Of a stretch of 64,000 nucleotides of DNA, positions 61,155 to 63,387 are shown in pieces. The translations under genes were made by a program, and so were the position numbers. The DNA lies in assembly GCF_007828955.1 (NCBI RefSeq), contig NZ_VIVR01000001.1, forward strand, positions 5,208,001 to 5,272,000, written 5' to 3'. How positions within the stretch are numbered: position 1 is the stretch's first letter; each line of letters starts with the position of its first letter. The notes under the pieces were generated by a model. That model was given only the letters and a program-made list of their open reading frames with translations, did no database searches and had not been told where the DNA came from. Source of the DNA: Kitasatospora atroaurantiaca (GTDB taxonomy: Bacteria > Actinomycetota > Actinomycetes > Streptomycetales > Streptomycetaceae).

Positions 61155-61179
61155 GCACCGCACAGCCAGGCAACCCATC

Positions 61180-61267
61180 AGGGGCGCGGGGCCCTGCTTG
61201 ATCAACTGCGTGCGCGACCTCGGCACGACGCACGTGCATGGTTGATCGCGCAGTTCCCCGCGCCCCT
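61180..61267. repeat. Dispersed intergenic inverted repeat, copy 8
   Basis: The left arm is partly changed (GGGGCCCTGCTTGATCAACT), the right arm is consensus. A GATCAAC/GTTGATC pair extends the stem. Between convergent rlmN and the permease gene. Confidence 0.8.
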
Positions 61268-61286
61268 GAAGCGGTTCCCGCAAGGG

Positions 61287-62435
61287 TTACCGCATCGCGC
61301 CCGCGCCCAGGGCGGCCGTCAGGCCGCCGGTCACCAGCAGGACGGTGCCGGCCGCGCCGGTCCGCAGCAGGGCGGCCCCGAACAGCAGCCGCGGTGCGGC
61401 TCCGAGCTGTAGCAGCGCGGCGGTGACGCCCCGCCGGGAGCTGCGGACCTCGGCCGCCCGGGTGATCGTGGCGGCGATCGCGCAGCCGATGATCAGCGCA
61501 CCCTCGACGGCCGGCAGTGCCTCGGCCGTTCCCGGCTTGTCGGCCCAGTAGCGCACGGCTGTGAGCACCGCCGCCAGGGTCAGCGCCAGAACGGCCAGCG
61601 GTGTGCCGAGCCGTCCGGCCTCGGCCGTCAGGCCGCGTCCGGCCAGCAACCGCAGCGGGGCGGGCCGCCCGAGGGCGAGCAGCCGGCCGGTCCAGGCCAG
61701 CAGTGGTGCGGTAAGGAATGCCAGCCCGAGTGCGGCGAAGGTCCAGCCGGTCAGCGCTGCGGTGCTGGTGGCCCCGAGCCGGGCCGGCAGGTCGACGGGC
61801 CGGCCGTCCTGGGCCGCACCGGGGCGCAGCCCGTACAGCTCCAGGGCGATGCCGACGAGGACGAGTCCGGTGGGCACGGCGAGCCGCAGGGGGCCGAATC
61901 CGGCGCGCGGGGGCTGGCCGGCACGGCCGGGCAGCGCCTCGGAGACCGGGACGGCGGCGCCGGCCGAGAGCCCGGCCACCAGCGGCACCAGGGTCAACAG
62001 CGTGACGGGGGCGGCAGCCGGCAGCGGGACTCCCATGCCGAGCTCGGGGGCGAGCGAGGCGTCGGCGATGTTGTTGCGCAGCACCAGGAAGAGCAGCAGG
62101 GTCAGCGCACTGCCGACGATGCAGGCGAGCGCGATCTCCCCGGCGATCAGAGCCCTGATCCTGGTCGGACCGGCCCCGGCGGCGGTGAGTCCGGTGATCC
62201 GCTCGGGGTGTGCCGCGGGTACCGCCCGGGCGGCGACGGCGGAGAGCCAGGCGACGGCGGCGAGCGGCGGCAGACACCAGAGCAGCCGGATCAGCGAGGC
62301 CCCGGCCGGTTCGGTGAGCGCCCGTCCGAGTGCGCGGAGCAGGAATCCGGCGACCACGGCGGCGGCGGTCGCGGTGAGCAGCCAGCGGCCGAGGTCGGCG
62401 ACCCGGTAGCCCCTGGCCAGACGGAGATAGAGCAC
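61287..62435 (-). CDS. FtsX/permease-like membrane protein of an ABC pair
   Basis: 382 residues from GTG 62435, with GGGAG 5 nt upstream. The frame is open further back through the ATPase gene but lacks a start signal there. Eight or more hydrophobic segments (e.g. LLTLVPLVAGLSAGAAVPVS, LAVLALTLAAVLTAVRYWAD). The middle, AAHPERITGLTAAGAGPTRI, is like the coupling region of FtsX-type permeases. Two similar halves suggest one fused permease. Twelve bases after the ATPase gene; substrate unknown. Confidence 0.75.
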   Translation of the reverse strand: MLYLRLARGYRVADLGRWLLTATAAAVVAGFLLRALGRALTEPAGASLIRLLWCLPPLAAVAWLSAVAARAVPAAHPERITGLTAAGAGPTRIRALIAGEIALACIVGSALTLLLFLVLRNNIADASLAPELGMGVPLPAAAPVTLLTLVPLVAGLSAGAAVPVSEALPGRAGQPPRAGFGPLRLAVPTGLVLVGIALELYGLRPGAAQDGRPVDLPARLGATSTAALTGWTFAALGLAFLTAPLLAWTGRLLALGRPAPLRLLAGRGLTAEAGRLGTPLAVLALTLAAVLTAVRYWADKPGTAEALPAVEGALIIGCAIAATITRAAEVRSSRRGVTAALLQLGAAPRLLFGAALLRTGAAGTVLLVTGGLTAALGAGAMR

Positions 62436-62446
62436 CGATCTCCCTC

Positions 62447-63193
62447 TCAGCGGCCGGCGACGGCGTTGACGGCCGTAGCGGCGGTGCCGTGCAGAACCGG
62501 TGCGATCGGGCCGACGAGCCTCCCGTCGACCAGGGACACCGTGCGGTCCGCGTAGCGGGCGAGTTCCGGGTCGTGGGTCGCCAGCACCAGGGTGAGCTGG
62601 TGCGAGCGGGCGGCGCTGGCCAGTATCCGCAGCACCTGGTCCTGGGCCTCCCGGTGAAGGGGAGCGGTCGGGTCGTCGGCGAAGACCACGGGCGGCAGCG
62701 GCGCGAGCGCGCGGGCCACCGCGATCCGCTGCCGCTGACTCTGGACCAGTTCGGCGGGCCGGCGGGTGGCGCACTCGGACACGTCGAGGCGCTCCAGCCA
62801 CTCGGCGGCGGCGGAGTAGGCGGCCTTGTGCCCGGCTCCGGCCAGCAGGAGGGGGAGGGCGACGTTCTCCCGGGCCGTCAGTTCCGGTACCAGGTGCGGC
62901 TCGGAGCCGACGAAGCCGAAGCGGTCCCGGCGCAGCCGCTCGCGTCCGGCCCGGCTCAGGGTGTGCACGGGCGAGCTGTTGAACCAGACCTCTCCCTCGT
63001 CCACCGGCAGCAGTGCGGAGAGACAGCCGAGCAGGGTGCTCTTGCCGGAGCCGCGCGGGCCGGTGATGGCGAGCACCTCGCCGTCCCGTACACCGAGGGA
63101 GACGCCGCGCAGGGCGGGAGTGCCGTGGTGGGACTTGACGATCCCTCGGGCCCACAGCACGTCGTTGTCAGGCGGGGCCGACATGAGTTCCAT
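62447..63193 (-). CDS. ABC transporter ATP-binding-like protein with degenerate motifs
   Basis: 248 residues. Overall layout of MacB/LolD-type ATPases. Walker A GPRGSGKST (45-53) and the H-loop His207 are intact. But the Q-loop Gln is Ser97 (FVGSEPH), the signature is LVQSQ (149-153) in place of LSGGQ, the Walker B catalytic Glu is Asp174, and the D-loop is APLH. It may bind but barely hydrolyse ATP. Alternative start at ATG 63184. Confidence 0.85.
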   Translation of the reverse strand: MELMSAPPDNDVLWARGIVKSHHGTPALRGVSLGVRDGEVLAITGPRGSGKSTLLGCLSALLPVDEGEVWFNSSPVHTLSRAGRERLRRDRFGFVGSEPHLVPELTARENVALPLLLAGAGHKAAYSAAAEWLERLDVSECATRRPAELVQSQRQRIAVARALAPLPPVVFADDPTAPLHREAQDQVLRILASAARSHQLTLVLATHDPELARYADRTVSLVDGRLVGPIAPVLHGTAATAVNAVAGR

Positions 63194-63310
63194 CCTGGTG
63201 CGTACGGGGATATGACAGTCGTCAGATTAGAACGACAGGGCCGTATCGAGGTTGCGGCACACTGGCCCATCCGGGGGCAAAATCCCGCGAATCCGGCGTG
63301 TTGGGAGCAG

Positions 63311-63368
63311 AAAAACACCGCAGGGCGGTCCCGGAACTCCCCTGTGAGGGGCCGGGACCGCCCTGCGG
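63311..63368 (-). terminator. Intrinsic terminator of the aminotransferase gene
   Basis: Perfect 17-bp arms (63318-63334 and 63352-63368) with an inner CCCCT/AGGGG stem; on the minus strand the stem is followed by GTGTTTTTC. Lies 19 bp after the stop at 63388. Confidence 0.9.
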
Positions 63369-63387
63369 CGGAGGGTGGGACGGAACG

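Follow-up and report, generated by a model that had tools for sequence, protein, structure and literature searches.

A conserved ABC ATPase with degenerate motifs and its FtsX-superfamily permease in Kitasatospora atroaurantiaca and related Streptomycetaceae

What can an ABC ATPase do for the permease encoded beside it once its motifs for ATP hydrolysis are gone? This question is raised by a gene pair in the Kitasatospora atroaurantiaca genome, found in a stretch of 64,000 nucleotides (contig NZ_VIVR01000001.1, positions 5,208,001 to 5,272,000), which we refer to as the window (Table 1).

Table 1. Positions of the gene pair and of the features compared with it (window coordinates, unless a locus with an L number is given)
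Feature	Position	Strand	Basis or remark
Degenerate ABC ATPase (NBD), 248 aa	62447..63193	minus	Frame, profile and orthologue comparisons
FtsX-superfamily permease, 382 aa, GTG start	61287..62435	minus	About nine long helices, no extracellular domain
Hairpin and U-tract after the upstream aminotransferase gene, terminator-like	63310..63370	minus	-55.7 kcal/mol, z -6.5
Palindromic stretch between the convergent permease and rlmN	61175..61270 (ends approximate)		Holds one copy of a genome-wide repeat
Repeat copy in the palindromic stretch	61246..61265
Other 11 repeat places	1101, 10178, 10226, 10319, 10370, 15600, 18250, 18290, 27258, 27306, 36281
Lrp/AsnC-type regulator beside the aminotransferase, right of the window	L245 5780-6541	minus
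PucR gene	L245 10732-12516
Canonical ABC pair of G163	L323 3896-5910

The ATPase and its permease

All four degenerate motifs reported in the original prediction for the nucleotide-binding domain (NBD) are correct, as are their residue numbers. Ser97 is found where a canonical NBD has the Q-loop Gln, 149-LVQSQ-153 replaces LSGGQ, Asp174 takes the place of the catalytic Glu, and the D-loop reads 177-APLH-180. The set of residues for hydrolysis (Q-loop Gln, LSGGQ, catalytic Glu, D-loop Asp) is thus absent. The H-loop is intact, with His207 present. Walker A (GPRGSGKST), also described as intact, does retain Lys51 but contains a Ser47 to Arg change that had been overlooked. The best NCBIfam models for the protein are LolD (2.5e-47, 161 bits) and YbbA (1.4e-44), although none of the 25 models listed is matched above its curated cut-off, and PDB profile matches to YbbA, LolD, and MacB place it in the LolD/MacB/FtsE group of NBDs. 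The two top PDB profile rows are two-domain Rv1281c chains, with single domains scoring lower. The AlphaFold model of the ATPase is of low confidence (pLDDT 52).

The permease gene starts 11 nucleotides past the ATPase stop. A 622-aa frame spanning both genes represents a frame extension, as GTG is found at the aligned permease start in 44 of 47 loci. The protein had been called a large permease, a description that does not hold when its 382 aa are compared with the 741-aa permease beside the nearest canonical paralogue. AlphaFold modeling from a 28-row alignment gave a best model with pLDDT 83 and pTM 0.82 (the other four had pLDDT 62-75). This model contains nine long helices and a short helix (residues 77-85) inserted between the second and third, which appears to sit at the coupling-helix place of FtsX-type permeases; the coupling-helix region is kept. 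No extracellular domain is found in the model, the candidate sites being loops of about 13 residues (42-54) and of 6 residues (300-305); other loops have about 20 residues. A Foldseek search with the model returned no match below E 0.001 (best BceB, E 0.083). In VIA-align 2, the model aligned with BceB (8s5g, Z 19.5, 361 residues, rmsd 5.5) and YbbP (9ge7, Z 17.1), its residues 1-166 with Mycobacterium tuberculosis FtsX (8idb, Z 13.5), and the first row outside the BceB/YbbP/FtsX group had Z 6.8. By its predicted structure, the permease has the FtsX fold. Its sequence matches Pfam FtsX weakly (14.8 bits, cut-off 25.5), contains no importer-permease Pfam match, and gave no match as a profile in a PDB sequence search. 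In profile comparisons, residues 63-273 align with 212-412 of the paralogue's permease, and residues 2-359 with 36-377 of the permease of a canonical pair from another family (G163, see below).

We compared the pair to known systems of this group. The permease model aligns over its full length with BceB, for which PMC11466899 describes ten transmembrane helices and one large extracellular domain; our model, in contrast, has about nine long helices and lacks such a domain, the NBD lacks hydrolysis motifs, and no BceRS-type genes were identified among the neighbors scanned. The NBD scores best with the LolD and YbbA models and the permease model aligns with YbbP, as in LolCDE/MacB/YbbAP systems, but the NBD has lost its motifs and the YbbP chain has about 800 residues. 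FtsE/X-like signaling without transport had also been considered. FtsE carries LSGGE, the Q-loop Gln, and the catalytic Glu and acts through its ATPase activity, and FtsX has an extracellular domain, about 100 residues long, by which it binds its enzymes (PMC11627006). What stands of this proposal is the permease fold in the FtsX superfamily, with the first half of the protein aligning with FtsX, and the shared notion that an ABC complex may signal instead of transporting. The ATPase, however, lacks the FtsE motifs and scores far below the cut-off of the FtsE equivalog model (129 bits versus 264.85), and with no extracellular domain in the permease the pair is unlikely to act on an enzyme outside the cell in the manner of FtsEX. 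FtsEX thus serves as an analogy for an ABC complex without transport and not as a family assignment.

Conservation and origin of the motif loss

We analyzed 130 ATPase orthologues from 16 genera, 70 from Kitasatospora and 60 from 15 other genera (the latter out of 87 family-search matches), with all rows retained in the motif count, including the frameshifted L068 and the odd L206. Neither the Q-loop Gln nor the SGG of the signature occurs in any of the 130, and the D-loop Asp is found once, with His at its place in 123. The catalytic Glu174 is present in 52 (48 of them among the 60 non-Kitasatospora proteins) and Asp in 77, one row being unreadable due to a frameshift. Walker A Lys51 is kept in 128/130 and Walker B Asp173 in 129/130. 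The H-loop His is found in 100, namely in 69/70 Kitasatospora and 31/60 other orthologues. All four noted positions are changed in 66/70 Kitasatospora proteins and in 11/60 others; the remaining 53 have three of them changed.

Residue 47 of Walker A is Ser in 31/31 canonical relatives and Arg in 124/130 orthologues, and Arg47 and His180 are jointly present in 118/130. The D-loop Asp of one NBD meets the Walker A of the other NBD, and the two changes may thus be linked. The A-loop position is His in 105/130 orthologues and Phe in the canonical loci L216 and L323. The letters replacing LSGGQ differ among orthologues; the Q-R stretch that follows is near-fixed (Gln155 in 129/130, Arg156 in 130/130). 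Among 84 positions conserved to at least 93% in the 31 canonical relatives, which were chosen by hand from a 44-row tree, 53 are kept (in at least 85% of the 130) and 31 are changed, the catalytic and cross-dimer set being among the latter, and 12 new near-invariant positions have appeared in the orthologues. Kept in the 130 is also the segment LVPELTxxENVALPL, which faces the permease in the type VII (MacB/LolD/FtsX) group.

All 130 ATPase frames have at least 220 aa, and two look odd: L068 is frameshifted near residue 165, and L206 deviates at Walker A in a genome that is 76% complete. The permease frame is closed and at least 330 aa long in 121/130 loci. Three of the other nine lie at contig ends, L074 is open over 385 aa, and five (L075, L076, L077, L178, L206) are split or short, by decay or sequencing error. 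Permease length varies: most Kitasatospora frames have 370-389 aa, those of L181, L195, L200, L204, and L211 in genus g10 have 470-664 aa, and in named Streptomyces (L113, L119, L120, L122) the additional residues form a variable mid-protein insert.

As a control, we compared 30 of at least 55 ABC matches in the K. atroaurantiaca genome, including the window's ATPase. The 29 next-best loci represent 28 distinct genes, L225 and L226 covering the same one, and 27 of the 29 have the canonical residue at all of Gln97, Gly151, Glu174, Asp180, and His207. Gln97, Glu174, and Lys51 are found in 29/29, and Gly151, Asp180, and His207 each in 28/29; the two deviating loci are L239, with Gln in place of the His, and L240, with GVG and Asn. 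The nearest paralogue, L216, which adjoins the 741-aa permease, is canonical, and the four changes occur together only in the window's ATPase among the same-genome loci examined. These findings together indicate that the motif loss is inherited rather than local, being shared by 130 orthologues while other ABC loci of the same genome are canonical. Canonical orthologues, which would have pointed to decay in the K. atroaurantiaca genome alone, were not found across the 16 genera, and such decay is ruled out.

A canonical counterpart is present in another Streptomycetales family. In genome G163, an ABC pair lies beside rlmN and cdsA (L259/L323), with ATPase motifs FVFQFG, MSAGQ, DEPTGALD, and THD. 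Unlike in the window's ATPase, the Gln, DEPTGALD, and the His are intact, and the permease is longer (450 versus 382 aa, with a longer C-terminus). No aminotransferase was found in the 8 kb examined around it. The pair, the canonical one at the rlmN place being known from this one genome, represents a natural before-state for the motif loss. In the trees, the signature-less sequences, a group assigned by hand on this feature, are monophyletic, and the G163 protein is their sister (support 100/97 with 44 rows, 99/97 in a 22-row tree); with the five motif segments removed, support is 96/79, just under the tool's mark of 95/80. The sequences fit one signature loss after the G163 lineage had split off. 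In three genomes of family f3 (L322, L324, L325), SGG and the H-loop His are missing from every ATPase at the matching place (3/3), the Q-loop Gln is kept in all three and the D-loop Asp in L322 only, and the frame that follows the ATPase has just 207-220 aa. The losses were thus stepwise, which fits Gln, Asp, Glu, and His having been lost later than the signature or separately from it.

The ATPase is found as one copy each in 115/121 family genomes (E<=1e-60), which excludes a chance reading of a poor frame, and the permease in 70/70 Kitasatospora genomes. The permease profile detects 45/45 genomes sampled from the family (K. atroaurantiaca itself and 44 from genus g10), 0/15 genomes from other families of Streptomycetales, and 0/7 genomes of genera g2 and g5. 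In five of these seven (L317-L321), an ATPase lies beside rlmN and cdsA, and the membrane frame after it (417-442 aa) is too different for the profile to match; these ATPases lack Gln, SGG, the D-loop Asp, and the H-loop His, with Glu present. An ATPase of this type also lies close to a contig end in a further g2/g5 genome, G104 (L260), and G086, a g2/g5 genome of the family, showed canonical relatives only. In a class sample, 22/148 genomes match the ATPase at E<=1e-52, a threshold at which more distant degenerate forms would be missed: the own genome, ten of the family, and eleven of other families, from which all 13 matches examined are canonical.

Median pairwise dN/dS in Kitasatospora is 0.11 for rlmN, 0.21 for an aminotransferase fragment, 0.31 for the ATPase, and 0.56 for the permease, values to be read as relative, since they were calculated by the Nei-Gojobori method without codon-bias correction for a high-GC genome, from non-independent pairs with dS 0.05-0.8 only (excluding L068 and L075-L078, and for the permease also L074). 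The permease is thus weakly constrained. Apart from five permease and two ATPase frames that appear damaged, the family does not show the disrupted frames and neutral evolution of a pseudogene. The pair is real and conserved and, as had been argued from its open frame, not a pseudogene.

Gene neighborhood

To the right of the pair lie an aminotransferase (PRK06541 model), an Lrp/AsnC-type regulator, an aldehyde dehydrogenase, a second aminotransferase, a PotD-like gene, a PucR regulator, an aminobutyraldehyde dehydrogenase, and PotD-, PotA-, and PotB-like genes. The original prediction holds where it argued against a pseudogene, but its statement that the pair lies beside no recognized cluster does not: the flank is of polyamine/ethanolamine type. 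This cluster holds two regulators, the Lrp/AsnC-type protein and PucR. All nine loci L317-L325 adjoin rlmN and cdsA, and six also show an aminotransferase in the stretch examined. An aminotransferase is near the ATPase in 51/60 non-Kitasatospora loci and rlmN within the stretch examined in only 11/60; in those named Streptomyces loci that show rlmN, it is several kb off. Conservation is thus good on the aminotransferase side, and additional genes have come in on the rlmN side in Streptomyces.

The terminator-like hairpin that follows the upstream aminotransferase gene makes the pair probably its own transcription unit. A promoter scan, of sigma-70 type only, found nothing. The palindromic stretch between the permease and rlmN is a possible two-way terminator. 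The 20-base repeat within it is found at 12 places of the window when up to 2 mismatches are allowed (0.01 expected). As a 21-mer with at most 1 mismatch it has 377 copies genome-wide, the reversed control having 0. Many of the listed copies form facing pairs whose starts are about 40-140 bases apart. The repeat may be terminator-like or a mobile palindromic repeat.

In PMC8998196, sco5654 of Streptomyces coelicolor is listed under polyamine uptake, the promoter of the operon including it is bound by EpuRI in gel shifts, and sco5655 (aminotransferase) and sco5657 (aldehyde dehydrogenase) are nearby. By this published gene order, as opposed to sequence, sco5654 is probably the counterpart of our locus. 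PMC8998196 is the one paper found to name sco5654; in the literature searched, which included few subscription papers, we recognized no description of this ABC family and found no experiment on it. The position of the pair and the published EpuRI gel shift point to a possible link to polyamine or ethanolamine metabolism.

Possible roles of a pair without hydrolysis motifs

Conservation of the pair despite the lost hydrolysis parts suggests a job other than pumping. We consider it probable that this is a vertically inherited type VII (MacB/LolD/FtsX) pair whose NBD is an ATP-binding pseudo-ATPase, with a regulatory or structural role together with the permease. The retained cis pocket, with the P-loop Lys and the Walker B Asp, would allow ATP to bind. 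LSGGQ and the D-loop Asp, which act across the NBD dimer, and the Q-loop Gln, which senses the γ-phosphate, are lost, and often the catalytic Glu or the H-loop His as well, so that normal sandwich-dimer hydrolysis would not be expected. Without hydrolysis there would be no power stroke and no pumping, and the nucleotide-occupied NBD may serve a small membrane protein without extracellular domain as its cap or sensor. More speculatively, the pair could regulate membrane traffic or gene expression tied to the neighboring polyamine/ethanolamine-type genes. A wider reading, to which we would give even chances, is that of an order-wide actinobacterial family in which the sole NBD of the pair lost the signature a single time and other catalytic parts stepwise, and which in Streptomycetaceae was kept with Arg47 and His180 as a near-core pseudo-transporter, exerting binding-only control over a small membrane protein.

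Could the ATPase still work, with Arg47, His180, and the conserved Q-R stretch substituting for LSGGQ and the D-loop? The near-fixed state of these residues and of Lys51 and Asp173 would be consistent with this, as would Glu174 in 52 orthologues. The Q-loop Gln, SGG, and D-loop Asp are jointly missing, however, the letters replacing LSGGQ vary, and the H-loop His is missing in 29/60 non-Kitasatospora proteins, and we thus regard a working enzyme as unlikely. Degeneracy of a single site has precedents among ABC proteins, and the degenerate NBD might pair with a canonical NBD encoded elsewhere, such as the closest paralogue, to form an asymmetric dimer with one working site. Fused NBDs with a single degenerate site are discussed in PMC11466899. 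We consider such a dimer likewise unlikely, as no second NBD is seen next to the pair in the window and the paralogue, L216, sits with a permease of its own.

Slow decay of a relic on its way out could account for the permease dN/dS, the five split or short permease frames, the drifting H-loop, and the short frames after the ATPase in the three f3 genomes. Yet nearly every sampled family genome has one copy, the ATPase has a dN/dS of 0.31, just two of 130 ATPases are visibly odd, and 12 positions have become near-invariant, which makes a relic quite improbable. Least probable is a polyamine importer, as printed for sco5654 (PMC8998196). Adjacent PotD/A/B-like genes and aminotransferases and the EpuRI gel shift on the sco5654 operon promoter speak for it; against it, the permease model is BceB/FtsX-like, with neither an importer-type permease nor a PotA-type NBD found in the pair, LolD is the best-scoring model for the NBD and exceeds PotA by a wide margin, and the same cluster contains separate PotA- and PotB-like genes.

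Most known degenerate ABC sites belong to asymmetric pairs, in which they are one of the two. In the gene pair described here, the only NBD is degenerate at any site that it could form with itself, and this across a family of model antibiotic producers. The polyamine-uptake suggestion printed for sco5654, the probable S. coelicolor counterpart, is called into question by our findings. With a canonical relative beside the same neighbor gene in a sister lineage, the role of an ABC complex without hydrolysis becomes directly testable.
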